Assembly (NCBI GenBank): GCA_020161405.1
Contig: JAIUOD010000002.1
Coordinates: forward strand, 372,001-436,000
Direction of reading: 5' to 3'
Source of the DNA: Pseudomonadota bacterium
GTDB lineage: Bacteria > Pseudomonadota > Alphaproteobacteria > Caulobacterales > Aquidulcibacteraceae
Length of the DNA stretch: 64,000 bases
Shown here: in pieces, positions 2,198-30,720 of the stretch
How positions within the stretch are numbered: position 1 is the first letter of the stretch
Layout of the letters: each line of letters starts with the position of its first letter
Made by a program: the position numbers and the translations under genes
Notes under the pieces: generated by a model
Told to the model about the DNA's origin: nothing
Database searches by the model: none
Seen by the model: the letters and a program-made list of their open reading frames with translations, nothing else

Positions 2198-3331
2198 ATG
2201 CGTCAAAATGTGAAATCTGCGAATAATTTATATGGGGGTGCAAGGGTTGCAACTTCTTATAATGCAGGTGCATTTGGCCTAAATTCACTTGATATATTAT
2301 TCAGTGTTTTAATTATATATTTTTTTAGCCCACGTTTTTGGGAAATTGCGTCTTTATTCCTTCCCGCGTCACGAATATTATCAAATCCCAATAATTTCGA
2401 CTTATTGCAAGCGGCAATCCTAAGCTTAGGTTTTGTTGGAATTGCTGTTAAATGGGAATTGATGGCAAAGATAATTTATCGTTTCACCTTCTTATTTATA
2501 ATGATTGGTGCTGCGTCATTGTCAGTATTTTGGTCAATTGATAAGGCGCAAACGCTAAAAGCTGCGATATATCTTGGCCTTATTATAAGTTTTGCAACTG
2601 CACTTGGTTTACGCTTTGGCGAAAGTAAATTAGCCAATATTGCACTTATTTCCACTTTTAGCCTTATTGTCGTACAAATGCTTTTGTCGATAAGTAAGTT
2701 TTCAAGTGCACAAATGCTTGCGCCAAGTGATTTTGAAATTTCTTATTGTTTGGTATGTGCATTTTGGGCAATGTCATCTAATACTAAATACGCGCTTTTT
2801 TATGCACCAATTGTATTATTTTGCGGTGCAATTGTGCTTTTGAACCAAGATATAATGGGAATAAGTGTATTAATTGCAATTGCGGGCGCATATTGCGTGA
2901 TCTTTTTTTCAAGACTTAATAATGGCGAAATAATATCAATTTCAGGCTCTATTGGTGTTTTGGTTTTATTGGCAACATTTTTGGTTTTAGGTTTTGGTCA
3001 GCAAGGTTTTGAATATGTTGCGCAAACCCTTGGTGATTTTTCGCTAAAATCATTGATTGGTAATGGATATGGCTTGGGGCAAGGAAAAATTCAAACATAT
3101 CTAATTGATGGCCTTGGCCTTATTGGGATTTTGCTTGGTGTGTTTTTTGTGTTTTTTGCTTCTTTAGTTGCAATTTTAAGTGCCAAAAACAGGCCATCAA
3201 TTGTTGTTGCAATATTTGGTTTTATTGCGCTTGTAATGGCAAATTTCCCTGCCATTGGCTATAATTGGGGAATATTGATATTATTGTTTGCGTCTGTAAT
3301 TATCGGTTTAATCCCAATTCGCAAATCCTAA
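2198..3331 (+). CDS. hfsC: HfsC/Wzy-like polysaccharide polymerase
   Basis: This integral membrane protein of about 377 residues has roughly ten hydrophobic segments and the O-antigen polymerase/ligase signature ASLSVFWSIDKAQTLKAA, typical of Wzy-type polymerases that join lipid-linked repeat units in the periplasm. It is somewhat shorter than the usual 400-450 residues. A TTG codon three bases upstream (2195) is in frame; ATG at 2198 was preferred, with GGA at 2185-2187 as a weak ribosome binding site. Its TAA stop overlaps the TAG stop of the opposing glycosyltransferase by two bases (CDS overlap four bases), so no gene lies between the two halves of the locus. The name is inferred from position after HfsA and HfsB. 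Confidence 0.75.
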   Translation: MRQNVKSANNLYGGARVATSYNAGAFGLNSLDILFSVLIIYFFSPRFWEIASLFLPASRILSNPNNFDLLQAAILSLGFVGIAVKWELMAKIIYRFTFLFIMIGAASLSVFWSIDKAQTLKAAIYLGLIISFATALGLRFGESKLANIALISTFSLIVVQMLLSISKFSSAQMLAPSDFEISYCLVCAFWAMSSNTKYALFYAPIVLFCGAIVLLNQDIMGISVLIAIAGAYCVIFFSRLNNGEIISISGSIGVLVLLATFLVLGFGQQGFEYVAQTLGDFSLKSLIGNGYGLGQGKIQTYLIDGLGLIGILLGVFFVFFASLVAILSAKNRPSIVVAIFGFIALVMANFPAIGYNWGILILLFASVIIGLIPIRKS

Positions 3332-16237: not shown

Positions 16238-17425
16238 ATGGGCGCGAAAAACACCTTCAATTGGCAGGATCCATTTTTATTCGAAAATCAATTAAACGAA
16301 GAAGAAAAAATGATTCGTGATACGGCAAATTCATATTGCCAGGGCAAATTATTGCCACGTGTTCGGGATGCATTCCGTAATGAATATACTGACCCTGCTA
16401 TTTTTAGCGAAATGGGTGAACTTGGCCTTTTAGGTGTTACAATACCAGAAGAATTTGGCGGCACTGGCGCAGGTTATGTGTCTTATGGCCTTGTTGCACG
16501 TGAAGTTGAACGTGTTGATTCTGGTTATCGCTCTATGATGTCTGTGCAGGCATCTTTGGTTATGTATCCAATTTATGCCTATGGCTCGCAAGAGCAAAAG
16601 GAAAAATATCTTCCAAAACTTTGCTCTGGCGAATGGATTGGTTGTTTTGGTTTAACCGAACCCGATGCGGGTTCTGACCCTGCGGGAATGAAAACTAAAG
16701 CCACCAAAATTGATGGCGGCTATGTTTTGAACGGCGCAAAAATGTGGATTTCAAATTCACCGATTGCCGATGTTTTTGTAGTTTGGGCAAAATCTGATGC
16801 CCATGATGGCAAAATTCGTGGCTTTGTCCTTGAAAAAGGCATGAAAGGTCTATCTGCGCCAAAAATTGAAGGCAAATTATCACTTCGCGCATCTATCACT
16901 GGTGAAATCGTGATGGATAATGTTGAAGTTCCTGAAAGCGCATTATTACCAAATGCCGAAGGTTTAGGCGGGCCATTTGGCTGTTTGAACCGCGCCCGTT
17001 ATGGCATTGCATGGGGTGTTATGGGGGCGGCGGAAACCTGCTGGCATGCGGCGCGCCAATATGGGATGGACAGGAAGCAATTTGGTCGCCCACTTGCTAA
17101 TAATCAATTATTCCAAGCTAAATTAACCGAAATGATGACCGAAATCACTTTAGGCCTACAGGCTTGTTTACGGGTTGGTCGTTTATTCGAAGAAGGCCAA
17201 ATGGCACCTGAAATGATTTCAATCATCAAACGCAATAATTGCGGCAAAGCCCTTAATATCGCCCGTATGGCGCGCGATATGCACGGCGGAAACGGTATTT
17301 CAGATGAATTCCCAATCATGCGCCACATGGTAAATCTTGAAACTGTAAACACCTATGAAGGTGCTTATGACGTGCACACCCTAATTCTTGGCCGCGCGCA
17401 AACAGGATTGCAGGCGTTCTTTTAG
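16238..17425 (+). CDS. gcdH: Glutaryl-CoA dehydrogenase
   Basis: This acyl-CoA dehydrogenase of 395 residues oxidises and decarboxylates glutaryl-CoA to crotonyl-CoA in lysine and tryptophan breakdown. FAD and substrate motifs are [32 protein letters not shown] and [14 protein letters not shown]. The catalytic glutamate lies in [10 protein letters not shown] (about residue 372), where GCDH-type enzymes carry it. The N-terminus ([21 protein letters not shown]) is the characteristic GCDH opening. AGGGG precedes the ATG. It stands alone, with no ETF or CoA-transferase gene beside it. Confidence 0.9.
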
Positions 17426-17429
17426 CGCT

Positions 17430-17521
17430 CAACTTGCCACCTTCGGCGCTTCGCGCCTCACTCAGCAAGTTGGTTTATTCGGACATTAAAAATCAAAAAG
17501 CGTGGTTTTTGATTTTTAATG
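17430..17521. repeat. Bipartite stem-loop element, copy 1
   Basis: Two adjacent hairpins start five bases after the gcdH stop. Hairpin A: CAACTTGC (17430-17437) with GCAAGTTG (17465-17472), enclosing a small GGCGC-TTC-GCGCC hairpin and the text TCACTCAG. Hairpin B: a perfect 16-bp stem (17484-17499 with 17506-17521) around loop GCGTGG. A copy with the same geometry lies after cysD (29025-29108). Hairpin B has no U-tract, so it is not a standard terminator. Confidence 0.75.
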
Positions 17522-17531
17522 GCATGTTTTT

Positions 17532-17567
17532 AAAATGGGCTTGAAACTTTGGTTTCAAGCCCATTTT
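17532..17567. terminator. Strong 16-bp hairpin, probable terminator
   Basis: AAAATGGGCTTGAAAC (17532-17547) pairs perfectly with GTTTCAAGCCCATTTT (17552-17567) around loop TTTG. The A-rich left and T-rich right ends fit an intrinsic terminator for gcdH, although the U-run is only four bases. It is the third stem-loop in 140 bases. Confidence 0.6.
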
Positions 17568-17651
17568 ATTTCAATTGAAAGCCTCAAGTTAATAATTTTA
17601 ATTTACTTAATATTGCTTAAACTTAATAGTGCAATATTCATTTAATAAATA

Positions 17652-19550
17652 ATGGATGTGTACTTGGAAAAGCGTTTATTAAAAGTGTTTTTACTATTGT
17701 TGTTGCCAGCTTTAGTAATTTTATCATTCCCAGATTTATATGTTATAGCAATCGTTACAATTGTTGGGATAGTTTTTGTACCGTTTTTCTACGCAATTAT
17801 ATTTGCCGAAATTGTCTGCTTTGGAACTATTTTCTTCTCTTTTTTTATTGGCAGAATGTTTTGGAATAGCGAAGACGAAGCTTCGCAAAGGTCAAGAATT
17901 TTTATCGGTCTTTCACTAACTATATTAACTATGGTTGGAATTCCATTTTTTGTTAACAAATCCACAAATGAAAAACTAAATCAATTTAATGCCCAAAATA
18001 TAAATCTGATTGATAATTATCCCTTAGGCACGCGCATCGCAATTGTGAATAATGCAAGAAGGTATAATGGCTCTCAAGCAATTTGCGATGGCATGTGTGT
18101 AAGATTATTATATTCTGGCCGCTTCACAGAAGTGATAGTTCTTGAAGATTATCCAAATACAAATATCGCGCCAAGTGAAGAATATAGATCTTTTCATATT
18201 GAAAATAGAACTAATTGCCCATTAATTGACATTCAGGATAATGATGTTGGGTCTTTGAAGCGGTCTTATGATAATGAGAATGTCAAAAATGAACCTTCAA
18301 TCTCGCCAGAAAAATTTGCCCTTGGTAAAGTTGCGCAAAACCAATGTATTGTTGAAAGGAAGACTAAATTACAAAATGGCGATACTATTATTTTTGATAA
18401 TGTTGGACAAATAAGTCAAAGGCGCAATAAGTTCGATATCGCTTTCTATCGCACGCGCAGCGCATTAGCTTATAGAATTATTGATGATAAATTTCTAAAA
18501 ATATATCAATTTTCTGAAGCAGAACATTATCCGTTGGCGCCGATTTTGATGATTGTGCCTTCATATTCGGGCATGTCAGCTTCAAACAGTTTATGGCGGG
18601 TTTCAGATAAATCTAGTAATAAGGTTAAAAATGATGACAAACGTTCATTATTGGTTGCCACCCTAATTGATAAAATGGGCATTAATCTTGAATTGCCAGA
18701 TATTAACATTGATTATATGGAAGAAAAAAATGTCGATAAATTTATAAATAATACAAATTATAATGAAAACTCGCAAAAAATAGCAGAAAATTATTTGGAA
18801 ACACTAACTAACCGCGAAACCACAATTTCATACAGATACTCAAAATATAGTGAAGAAGAATTGTCGCGCGTTTTTAAAATTTATATTAATCCAAACATCA
18901 ATGTGCCTGACCAAATGAGTGTTTTTGTAGCGCATGTAAAAAGGGATGAAACTGATTTTTTTGAAAAAATGGCAAATGCATCATTTACCAAACTAGAAAA
19001 ATATAATCAAAATTTTAGCGGCGACAAATACAAAGCAAAATCTGAAATTTCTGAAATCGCTATGATTTTCAACCAAATGCCTGATGACATTATAATTAAG
19101 CATCAAAATGAGTTTGTAAAAACACTTGAAAAACCTAAAATAATGTTTGGTTTCAAACAATTGTTACCAAAGTTTGCACTTTTTGGTGATGCAGCGAAGC
19201 CAATGGCTCTGAACCTAATTGACAATGGGCTTATGGTTTCAAAATATTCAAAAAACTTAGATGTTTTTGATGAATCTGCTCGTGAAACAGCATATAGTGC
19301 TTTAAATATAATTTGTCTATTATCCGATAAATCCGACATAAAAATGAAAAATGAAATAGTCAATAGGGTTATGGACAACCCTGAATTTAATTCTCAATCT
19401 GTCGCTATTACACTTTATCAACTTGGTGCGTCTAGGGGCGAAATAGTGTCTGTTTTAAAATGGCAGGATAAAACAGAAGAACAAAATCATTTTGATGTAA
19501 AAATAAATTATAATGGCAAAAAAAGAAAAGAGGAAATATGTAATTTTTGA
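17652..19550 (+). CDS. Large membrane-anchored protein of unknown function
   Basis: This 632-residue protein is not recognised. Residues 1-110 hold about four hydrophobic helices (LLKVFLLLLLPALVILSF, VIAIVTIVGIVFVPFFYAII, a third near 60-75, and IFIGLSLTILTMVGIPFFV). The remaining 520 residues are soluble and probably periplasmic, with a few cysteines (QAICDGMC, TNCPLID, QNQCIVE). The middle contains a conserved-looking segment around FDIAFYRTRSALAYRI. The C-terminal third is helical and charged. Only about 225 bases of hairpin-rich DNA separate it from gcdH, and a minus-strand operon converges on it 26 bases downstream. A weakly AT-richer composition than neighbours is visible but not measured. 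Confidence 0.7.
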   Translation: MDVYLEKRLLKVFLLLLLPALVILSFPDLYVIAIVTIVGIVFVPFFYAIIFAEIVCFGTIFFSFFIGRMFWNSEDEASQRSRIFIGLSLTILTMVGIPFFVNKSTNEKLNQFNAQNINLIDNYPLGTRIAIVNNARRYNGSQAICDGMCVRLLYSGRFTEVIVLEDYPNTNIAPSEEYRSFHIENRTNCPLIDIQDNDVGSLKRSYDNENVKNEPSISPEKFALGKVAQNQCIVERKTKLQNGDTIIFDNVGQISQRRNKFDIAFYRTRSALAYRIIDDKFLKIYQFSEAEHYPLAPILMIVPSYSGMSASNSLWRVSDKSSNKVKNDDKRSLLVATLIDKMGINLELPDINIDYMEEKNVDKFINNTNYNENSQKIAENYLETLTNRETTISYRYSKYSEEELSRVFKIYINPNINVPDQMSVFVAHVKRDETDFFEKMANASFTKLEKYNQNFSGDKYKAKSEISEIAMIFNQMPDDIIIKHQNEFVKTLEKPKIMFGFKQLLPKFALFGDAAKPMALNLIDNGLMVSKYSKNLDVFDESARETAYSALNIICLLSDKSDIKMKNEIVNRVMDNPEFNSQSVAITLYQLGASRGEIVSVLKWQDKTEEQNHFDVKINYNGKKRKEEICNF

Positions 19551-28117: not shown

Positions 28118-29020
28118 ATGAAACAATTAAGCCATTTAGACCGCCTAGAGGCTGAATCAATTCGCATAATCCGTGAAGTGGCGGCATTGGCGGACAAGCC
28201 TGTAATGCTTTATTCAATCGGTAAAGATAGTGCGGTTATGCTTCATCTTGCGATGAAGGCATTTTACCCATCAAAGCCGCCATTTCCACTTTTGCATGTT
28301 GATACGGGCTGGAAGTTTAAGGAAATGATTGAATTTCGTGACCGCCACACCAAAGAACTTGGGGTTGAACTTTTGGTTCATATTAATCCCGATGGTCTGG
28401 CACAGGGGATTTCACCTTTAAAACATGGTTCAAAAGTCCATACTGATGTAATGAAAACCCAAGGGCTTAAACAGGCACTTGATAAATATGGTTTTGACGC
28501 AGCTTTCGGCGGTGCGCGCCGCGATGAAGAAAAATCACGCGCAAAAGAGCGTATCTTCTCATTCCGTGCGGCTGGGCATATTTGGGATCCGAAAAATCAA
28601 CGCCCTGAACCTTGGAATTTGTTTAATACGCTTAAGGATAAGGGTGAATCATTTCGCGTTTTCCCGCTTTCAAATTGGACTGAATATGATGTTTGGGCCT
28701 ATATTGAGCGCGAAAATATCCCAGTTGTGCCATTATATTTTGCCAAAGAACGCCCAATTATCGAACGCGATGGCGCACTTATTATGGCTGATGATGAACG
28801 CCTTGAATTGCGCGATGGTGAAAAAATTGAAAACCGCCTTGTACGCTTTAGAACCCTTGGCTGTTACCCTTTAACTGGTGCGGTTGAATCAAGTGCCAAA
28901 AATTTGCCCGAAATTGTTGATGAGATGTTTGCCGCCAAGGTTTCCGAGCGCCAGGGGCGAATTATCGACCAAGATTCAGGTGCATCAATGGAACAAAAGA
29001 AAGCGGAAGGCTATTTTTAG
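28118..29020 (+). CDS. cysD: Sulfate adenylyltransferase subunit 2
   Basis: This 300-residue small subunit of ATP sulfurylase adenylylates sulfate to APS together with CysN. The PP-loop motif is [46 protein letters not shown] and the C-terminal [17 protein letters not shown] are family hallmarks. It follows cysH by four bases. After its stop there is a 149-base gap to cysN holding a stem-loop element, which is unusual for a gene pair whose products form a complex. Confidence 0.94.
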
Positions 29021-29024
29021 ATTT

Positions 29025-29108
29025 CAAATTCCCGCCCTCGCTTCTCTCACTTAGGAAATTGGGAAGTAGAAAATAATTTTTGAAAAGCGTGGTTTTCAAA
29101 AATTATTT
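29025..29108. repeat. Bipartite stem-loop element, copy 2 (cysD-cysN gap)
   Basis: Hairpin A: CAAATTCC (29025-29032) with GGAAATTG (29054-29061), 7 of 8 pairs, loop containing TCACTTAG. Hairpin B: AAATAATTTTTGAAAA (29071-29086) pairs perfectly with 29093-29108 around loop GCGTGG. Sequence and spacing match copy 1 at 17430-17521, and both begin five bases after a stop codon. No U-run follows. Here it sits inside an operon, where it may stabilise the cysD mRNA or cut transcription into cysN. Confidence 0.75.
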
Positions 29109-29169: not shown

Positions 29170-30720
29170 ATGAAAAATATAATTGAAGAAAATAGTTTAG
29201 GGCTTTTGAAATTCATCACCTGTGGGTCGGTTGATGATGGCAAATCGACACTTATTGGGCGTCTGCTATTTGATGCAGGGCAGGTTTATGAAGATCATCT
29301 TGATGCCCTTGATGATGCCAGTAAAAAGTTCGGTACAACAGGTGAAAACCGCGATTTCGCCCTTCTTGTTGATGGCCTTTCGGCAGAGCGCGAGCAGGGG
29401 ATAACGATTGACGTTGCCTATCGCTATTTTCGCACCAAAAAGCGCGCTTTCATTGTTGCCGATACACCGGGGCATGAACAATATACGCGCAATATGGCAA
29501 CGGGTGCATCAAATTGCGACCTTGCCGTAATTTTGATTGATGCGCGCAAAGGTGTTTTGGTGCAAACCCGCCGCCATGCGCTTATCGTTGCCAAAATGGG
29601 CGTTAAGAAAATTGTTTTAGCCATCAATAAGATGGATTTAATCGGTTATGATAAAAATATTTTTGAAAATATCAAAAAAGATTTCCAAAAATATGCCGAT
29701 ATTTTCAAATTTGAAGAAATACAGGCCATTCCAATCGCCGCGCCAAATGGTGAAAATGTTGCCAAATTGGCAAGTGAAAATATGGCTTGGTATAATGGCC
29801 CATATTTACTTGAATATTTAGAAAATGTTCAACCTTCAAAACCACAGGCATTAAATTTTAGATTCCCCGTTCAATGGGTAAATCGCCCCGATTTAGATTT
29901 TCGTGGCTTTGCAGGTTATGTCTCAAGTGGGATTGTGAAAATTGGCGATGTAATCAAAGTTTCATCATCAGGTGAAAAAGCCAAAGTTGCGCGCATAGTA
30001 ACCCAAAATGGCGATTTAGATGCCGCAATCGCAGGCCAAGCGCCAACAATTTGCCTTGATAAAGAAATTGATGTTTCGCGCGGCGATGTATTAATTGCCG
30101 CCAATGATCCAATTGAAACACAAAGCAAATTCAAAGCCTCAATTTTTTGGATGTCGGCGGATAAATCAAGTGAATATAAGGAATATGCCTTCAAACTTGG
30201 CACATCATTCACCAATGCCAAATTGAAAGTCGAAAAAACAATTGATTTTAACGACCTTCAAGAAATACCAAATAAATCTTTATCAATGAATGCAATCGGT
30301 TCGGTGCAAATTACTCTTTCAAAGCCTGTTTTGTTGGATACATATTCCAAAGATCGTGAATTGGGGGCTTTTATCCTTATTGATAAAATCACTAATGAAA
30401 CTGTTGGCCTTGGCATGGTTGAAACGATTGTTAAGGGTGAGAATAAAACAAATCGCTTTGACGAAATTGCCCATTATTTAATGCCGCACCATGCAAATCC
30501 AAATTCAGCCTTAAAATATCTTATTAATTGGCGAATTTTTGCGGCAATTGCGTTTAGTGCTTTGGTTTGGATTGTGACCAAGAATTTGGGTTATTTTGCA
30601 CTTGCAATTTTGGCGGAATTTATTTTGCGCCCGATTTTACAATATGTGCACTATAATCTTTATTATAATGATGCTAAAAATTCCGAAAATGACAATATTT
30701 CTGACGGCTCGGGCATATGA
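29170..30720 (+). CDS. cysN: Sulfate adenylyltransferase subunit 1 fused to a DUF2061-like membrane domain
   Basis: This 516-residue GTPase subunit of ATP sulfurylase has G-domain motifs CGSVDDGKSTLIGRLLF, ADTPGHEQYTRNM and AINKMDL, followed by two beta-barrel domains. Bifunctional CysNC proteins carry an APS kinase next; here no GxxGxGKS/T kinase motif exists. Instead the last 75 residues hold a motif NSALKYLINWRIFAA and two hydrophobic helices (FSALVWIVTKNLGYFAL, ILAEFILRPILQYVHYNLYY) resembling DUF2061. ATG at 29170 is chosen; the upstream codons (from 29080) run through the stem-loop and do not match the family. Stop overlaps cysG. Confidence 0.88.
   Translation: MKNIIEENSLGLLKFITCGSVDDGKSTLIGRLLFDAGQVYEDHLDALDDASKKFGTTGENRDFALLVDGLSAEREQGITIDVAYRYFRTKKRAFIVADTPGHEQYTRNMATGASNCDLAVILIDARKGVLVQTRRHALIVAKMGVKKIVLAINKMDLIGYDKNIFENIKKDFQKYADIFKFEEIQAIPIAAPNGENVAKLASENMAWYNGPYLLEYLENVQPSKPQALNFRFPVQWVNRPDLDFRGFAGYVSSGIVKIGDVIKVSSSGEKAKVARIVTQNGDLDAAIAGQAPTICLDKEIDVSRGDVLIAANDPIETQSKFKASIFWMSADKSSEYKEYAFKLGTSFTNAKLKVEKTIDFNDLQEIPNKSLSMNAIGSVQITLSKPVLLDTYSKDRELGAFILIDKITNETVGLGMVETIVKGENKTNRFDEIAHYLMPHHANPNSALKYLINWRIFAAIAFSALVWIVTKNLGYFALAILAEFILRPILQYVHYNLYYNDAKNSENDNISDGSGI

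Follow-up and report, generated by a model that had tools for sequence, protein, structure and literature searches.

A genus-specific family of two-hairpin elements at gene ends in Hyphomonadaceae

We found a family of short two-hairpin elements that is real, genus-wide and structurally selected, and that is apparently undescribed. Two copies lie in the window, the 64,000-nt stretch of DNA analyzed here, and many more lie in the same genome and in the other genomes of the genus. Judged from the sequence, we tentatively prefer to read the family as a structured element, specific to the genus, that would act in cis and in RNA at the 3′ ends of transcripts. No description of the element was found in the open-licence literature; this silence is weak evidence for novelty because only open-licence papers were covered.

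The two window copies carry the parts that a preliminary description had assigned to them, at the same positions (Table 1). Each adjoins a stop codon as described, with an exact spacing of 4 nt before the first paired base instead of a start five bases past the stop. The outer arms of hairpin 1, described as shared, hold in copy 1, whereas in copy 2 they pair at 7 of 8 positions only; with its inner stem broken as well, hairpin 1 of copy 2 is damaged, and it is not the predicted minimum-energy fold. The 16-bp stems of hairpin 2 differ in sequence between the copies and yet are both fully complementary, as had been noted. The folding z-scores of copy 1 are −5.2 (RNA) and −6.4 (DNA). A search of the whole window for perfect hairpins with stems of 12 bp or more and loops of 3-8 nt gave one besides these, the terminator-like one directly 3′ of copy 1. 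An open reading frame of 632 codons, also 3′ of copy 1 (17652-19550), has no NCBIfam or Pfam match.

Table 1. Parts of the two element copies and neighboring features in the window.
Feature	Position	Strand	Remarks
Copy 1, whole element	17430-17521	+	location verified in the window
Copy 1, hairpin 1, outer stem, 5′ arm	17430-17437	+	CAACTTGC; from sequence and family alignment
Copy 1, internal-loop strand	17438-17444	+	conserved CRCCYTC, here CACCTTC
Copy 1, inner stem	17445-17457	+	GGCGC TTC GCGCC, TTC triloop (GAA triloop on the opposite strand)
Copy 1, internal-loop strand	17458-17464	+	conserved TCACTYR, here TCACTCA
Copy 1, hairpin 1, outer stem, 3′ arm	17465-17472	+	GCAAGTTG
Copy 1, linker	17473-17483	+	3′ end is the conserved GGA; final A opposite a purine across the stem base
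Copy 1, hairpin 2	17484-17521	+	perfect 16-bp stem; GCGTGG tip at 17500-17505
Copy 1, hairpin 2, arms	17484-17499, 17506-17521	+	CATTAAAAATCAAAAA, TTTTTGATTTTTAATG
Gene upstream of copy 1	16238-17425	+	acyl-CoA dehydrogenase family; stop codon 17423-17425
Terminator-like hairpin 3′ of copy 1	17531-17568	+	17 bp, TAAAATGGGCTTGAAAC TTTG GTTTCAAGCCCATTTTA; outside the element
Copy 2, whole element	29025-29108	+	location verified in the window
Copy 2, hairpin 1	29025-29061	+	outer arms 29025-29032 and 29054-29061, 7 of 8 paired
Copy 2, internal loop and inner stem	within 29025-29061	+	CGCCCTC and TCACTTA; inner stem GCTTCTC imperfect
Copy 2, linker	29062-29070	+	short; GGAAGTAGA
Copy 2, hairpin 2	29071-29108	+	perfect 16-bp stem 29071-29086 and 29093-29108; GCGTGG tip at 29087-29092
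cysD, gene upstream of copy 2	28118-29020	+	stop codon 29018-29020
cysN, next gene after copy 2	29170-30720	+	alternatively from 29080

The element occurs beyond chance in its genome. The query AAAGCGTGGTTT gave 44 matches in the 2.98-Mb genome, mostly full elements, against one for the reversed control, and the hairpin-1 motif gave 32 against none. A covariance model built from 28 copies recovered ~57 full copies on either strand, the other matches being antisense readings of those stems. Each of the five genus genomes (G000 to G004; Hyphomonadaceae) has at least 29-34 copies, and the counts in the relatives are lower bounds as 34 candidates were scored per genome. Among 120 relatives scored with the model, none outside the genus reaches such numbers. 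In a survey of 398 genomes from the order, the five genus genomes had 21-34 occurrences of the hairpin-1 motif and the others 0-10 (mostly 0-3); for AAAGCGTSGTTT the numbers were 12-49 and at most 6, respectively. The ~390 other genomes of the order are thus at background level and the element is genus-specific. With the queries used, no copy was found in viral, phage and plasmid collections, and a phage or plasmid origin was rejected on that account.

The anatomy of the family was drawn from 119-136 copies. Hairpin 1 consists of an 8-bp outer stem, a 7 × 7 internal loop (5′-CRCCYTC / TCACTYR-3′) and an inner stem of variable length closed by a TTC, TTT, TAC or TGC triloop; in a minority of copies the first hairpin is of a different kind, AAAATATCA...TGAAACCTTTT in some and a perfect hairpin in others. 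A linker of 11-12 nt ending in GGA or AGA leads to hairpin 2, which has 16 stem positions, all paired in 55 of 136 copies and 15 paired in 60. Its stem is A/U-rich and is followed by the letters RCAT. Directly outside the 16 bp stands a purine·purine mismatch (A·A in 62 copies, A·G in 38, G·A in 12), and beyond it a G-C pair in 116 of 124. The GCGTGG tip, called fixed in the preliminary description, is indeed the same in both window copies, whereas the family has GCGTGG in 80 copies, GCGTCG in 16 and then rarer forms such as GCGCGG, GTGTCA and GTGTGA. Tip positions 2 and 6 are C-G in 112 of 124 copies and T-A in 6 (118 of 124 together); since these positions pair, the tip is best interpreted as a bulged G and a single pair with a triloop.

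Several variants of this plan were observed. Copies behind tRNA- or tmRNA-like genes (L005, L022, L029, L039, L141, L142) frequently have a mismatch at stem 2 pair 13, a layout of 12 bp, mismatch and 3 bp, whereas in most copies behind ORFs this pair is formed; this is possibly a subtype linked to the kind of gene. The copies behind both EF-Tu genes (L107:4026-4125(-) and L108:2003-2100(-)), each at a contig end, share the rare tip GTGTCA and differ in their stems. In G002, the orthologue (L243) of L145 has an extra short hairpin, CTCGTACTTGTTTCGAG, inserted within the stem 2 tip. A second repeat family, AAAATTTGC...GCAAATTTTGGCTCTTCGCCTTGTCC...AAAGTCTGCAACTTTT...GGGGCTCATCG, is nested in hairpin 1, within its inner hairpin, and two species have it there at the same gene (L116:1924-2097(+) in G000 and L156:1925-2095(+) in G004), and its relatives were found after other copies of the element (L020, L039).

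The placement of the copies is closely tied to gene ends. Of 102 copies, 70 begin no more than 12 nt past the stop codon of a sense ORF of at least 60 codons and 14 begin after a tRNA end, so that a sense ORF or tRNA immediately precedes 84 of them, against a random baseline of 4%; 9 copies have such an ORF end on the antisense side. Among the other 18, several were judged by eye to follow a gene end (tmRNA-like ends, and tuf at contig ends). The median offset after the stop codon is 5 nt, with 4-6 nt in 47 of the 70 ORF cases, and the offset after tRNA ends, on the sense strand, is 5-11 nt. The upstream genes include rpoC, gyrB, sdhA, sdhB, atpD, coxC, lpd, polA, both tuf genes, cysD and tRNAs. 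Copies facing each other were seen only where two convergent genes each own one, and copy 2 separates cysD from cysN. A terminator-like hairpin comes ~12 nt after about half of the G000 copies. The preliminary description had named a lack of further copies, or a placement that ignores gene ends, as what would speak against it; checked on both counts, copies abound in all five genomes and placement after stop codons held across the family.

Pairing is kept in the stems while their letters change. An initial alignment had Watson-Crick pairs in 97.9% of its stem cells, and both sides had changed in 149 cells, compared with 40 after shuffling. Orthologous genes were then located in the relatives through the C-terminal ends of 48 upstream proteins, and reading their 3′ flanks gave 29 orthologous sites with the element in both G000 and G003. 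Under a stricter parse of the hairpin-1 register, the outer stem of class-A hairpin 1 (20 sites, 160 pairs) had 121 unchanged pairs, 36 double changes and 3 single changes, and stem 2 (28 sites) had 380, 46 and 22, respectively. Four-fold-degenerate sites in orthologues of these two genomes are 69% identical, and at this divergence, if the two sides changed independently, single changes should outnumber double ones about fourfold. The stem letters therefore turn over at a roughly neutral rate and the pairing constraint is exceptional; the earlier claim of a selected structure, drawn from covarying stems around a fixed loop, is well supported, and the stems do covary around fixed unpaired parts. 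Orthologous copies of hairpin 1 often look wholly different, and an accelerated, wholesale swapping of hairpins was considered; it was dropped because the four-fold sites themselves are only 69% identical. Copying of the whole hairpin 1 between loci was also rejected, exact duplicates being rare (1-2 pairs per genome).

One pair in the internal loop is conserved in a non-Watson-Crick form. A·C and G·T pairs share wobble geometry. In 119 copies the pair is A·C in 66, G·T in 48, G·C in 4 and A·T in 1, that is, a wobble in 114 and Watson-Crick in 5 (Fisher p = 2e-27, uncorrected for shared ancestry). Between orthologous copies the wobble flips from A·C to G·T or back in 7 of 20 pairs, and one G·C was seen. 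Watson-Crick pairing is avoided at this position. Template switching during replication can create and keep perfect stems with multi-base compensatory changes (PMC8794818). It would, however, erase the wobble, the internal loop and the purine mismatch, so that selection on the folded form is needed; the conservation of a non-Watson-Crick pair indicates that the fold is selected, beyond any mirroring by replication.

The features differ in the strand on which they pair better. Two internal-loop positions are canonical in 116 and 117 of 119 copies on the strand opposite the transcript, against 17 and 45 of 119 on the sense strand, and the inner loop, read on the opposite strand, is a GNA triloop in most copies. 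For the purine mismatch at the base of stem 2 the sense strand gives the more natural reading, and the placement at gene ends favors the transcript as the folded molecule. G·U pairs are normally tolerated in RNA. Among 22 one-sided changes in stem 2, none gives G·U and 7 give A·C, which, like the two internal-loop positions and the GNA triloop, speaks against a simple RNA reading; the G·U share is 0.6% in stem 2, 1.4% in hairpin 1 and 3.0% in nearby terminators. Because those terminators, in the same genomes, are also so poor in G·U, the shortage is partly general, which weakens the absence of G·U as proof of a DNA element.

The element has been gained or lost at many genes, being present in G000 and G003 and absent in G001, G002 or G004. 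The clearest case is that of window copy 2, which lies between cysD and cysN here, whereas the cysD stop and the cysN start are 0-2 nt apart in G001, G002 and G004, the other species with both genes; the element is thus not generally needed there. Remnants and partial deletions exist (atpD in G004, the L041 orthologue in G003). When filled and empty sites were compared for a target-site duplication, the flanks were too diverged to display one. Within any genome no two copies are more than 93% identical, a tandem gene duplication in G004 excepted, and there has thus been no recent burst. In that duplication, the gene was copied together with its element (L145:2000-2092(-) and 2908-3000(-)), and the two are 97% identical. 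None of the five genomes matches the Y1 transposase (PF01797), positive controls having been detected, and mobilisation by a RAYT was rejected since the genus has no Y1 gene.

The preliminary description had offered either an RNA-processing signal or a small mobile element; placement at gene ends favors a role in the transcript, gain and loss among the species show that the element can reach new genes, and several pairing features suit the opposite strand better. In the reading that we prefer, the element, once transcribed, would fold and so give mRNAs and tRNA precursors a fixed 3′ boundary, where a putative host protein or nuclease would recognize the internal loop and the tip and would thereby stabilize or process the 3′ end. 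The element would reach new genes at a low rate and then be kept; we infer the low-rate copying because these genes also occur in related genomes that lack the element there. A serious rival is a DNA-hairpin element, since several features pair better on the opposite strand. It is possible, but rather less probable than the transcript reading, that the two hairpins form in single-stranded DNA, on the strand complementary to the transcript, and we hold it similarly doubtful that a candidate recombinase, nuclease or host DNA protein recognizes them, as REP transposases, integron integrases and gyrase recognize their sites, and that placement at gene ends reflects targeting or tolerance. The two internal-loop positions, the C(GNA)G-type triloops, the excess of A·C over G·T among stem-2 mismatches and the gain and loss at orthologous genes all fit this rival, and known REPs likewise cluster near ORF 3′ ends (PMC3733652). 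Against it stand the missing Y1 transposase, the lack of a recent burst, the maintenance of old copies that are not decaying, the essentially fixed orientation to the upstream gene and the empty searches of viral, phage and plasmid collections. We regard as unlikely a bolder possibility, that the wobble itself is selected and that the element folds opposite the transcript and is read as single-stranded DNA by a non-Y1 enzyme, which would install it precisely behind stop codons and tRNA ends.

The family might instead be a functionless relic of a miniature transposon or REP family whose perfect stems are kept solely by template switching. Such switching does create and maintain perfect stems (PMC8794818), and G·U intermediates are rare, as this reading expects. 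It is disfavored and seems improbable to us, because the wobble pair, internal loop, purine mismatch and tip are kept although switching would erase them, the loop is never seen inverted, and positions next to gene ends are conserved in orthologues. Least probable of all is an unusual intrinsic terminator: although the hairpins stand at gene ends and are followed by T-rich sequence, stem 2 is A/U-rich without an immediate U tract, hairpin 1 lacks a U tract as well, a distinct terminator-like hairpin is often found further on, and one copy occupies the cysD-cysN gap.

If functional, the element would represent a novel kind of signal at gene ends, serving core genes, tRNAs and both elongation-factor Tu genes. 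It also allows one to ask how transcript 3′ ends are marked where a bacterial lineage has no resident REP transposases. With ~50 copies in each genome, many of them at corresponding orthologous sites, the family is a natural experiment in which fold and sequence evolve apart. It lets one test how compensatory change passes without G·U intermediates, and whether wobble geometry is selected for itself.

The preliminary description knew of no named family with these features, which agrees with our comparisons, in which no Rfam match, REP tag or REP transposase was found. In the Rfam search of the window only tRNA scored above the gathering threshold, and the element, there and at four loci, was nowhere near it; the weak matches were set aside as noise on A/T-rich hairpins. 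Intrinsic terminators have a G+C-rich stem followed directly by a U tract, whereas stem 2 of the element has neither. Repetitive hairpin-forming (double-hairpin) elements of mitochondria are tandem, intergenic and thought to be mobile (PMC2800124). They lie in organelle genomes and are not known to be linked to gene 3′ ends. Repeats of the ERIC/NEMIS type are short, structured, found beside stop codons and able to alter mRNA stability as 3′ UTR RNA, but they are longer than our element and MITE-like, with terminal inverted repeats, and we saw no termini of that kind in ours. Integron attC sites also follow the stop codon in gene orientation and are recognized as a folded bottom strand with unpaired bases. 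They stand in cassette arrays, whereas our element lies outside such arrays and also behind tRNAs, and inspection of the element alignment revealed no attC core (RYYYAAC/GTTRRRY) at the hairpin ends.

The nearest kind is the REP class, and the element is REP-like in place and perhaps in role, although we do not class it as a REP. REPs are dispersed, intergenic palindromic repeats that mostly adjoin ORF 3′ ends and are probably transcribed, and those of E. coli have an essential mismatch within the stem (PMC3733652, PMC8266576). The element resembles REPs and BIMEs in its location at ORF 3′ ends (the 84 of 102 copies beside an ORF or tRNA end) and in its stem mismatches. However, the GTAG tag was found before hairpin 1 in 1 of 136 copies and in the linker in 5 of 136, and the CGTC tag in 1, 0 and 1 of 136. 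GTAG REPs are linked to RAYTs, whose gene the genus lacks; BIMEs are head-to-head or tail-to-tail dimers, whereas the element has two unlike hairpins in fixed order. Its stems are also far more divergent between copies than those of REPs, and it has a single orientation to the upstream gene. Separate from the element, the 3′ flanks of rpoC in G001 (L191) and sdhA in G002 (L197) contain GTCATCCCGCACTTG(A/T)TGCGGGATC repeats that resemble the CGTC-type REPs of alphaproteobacteria, and in G002 one such repeat occupies the place where G004 has the element.
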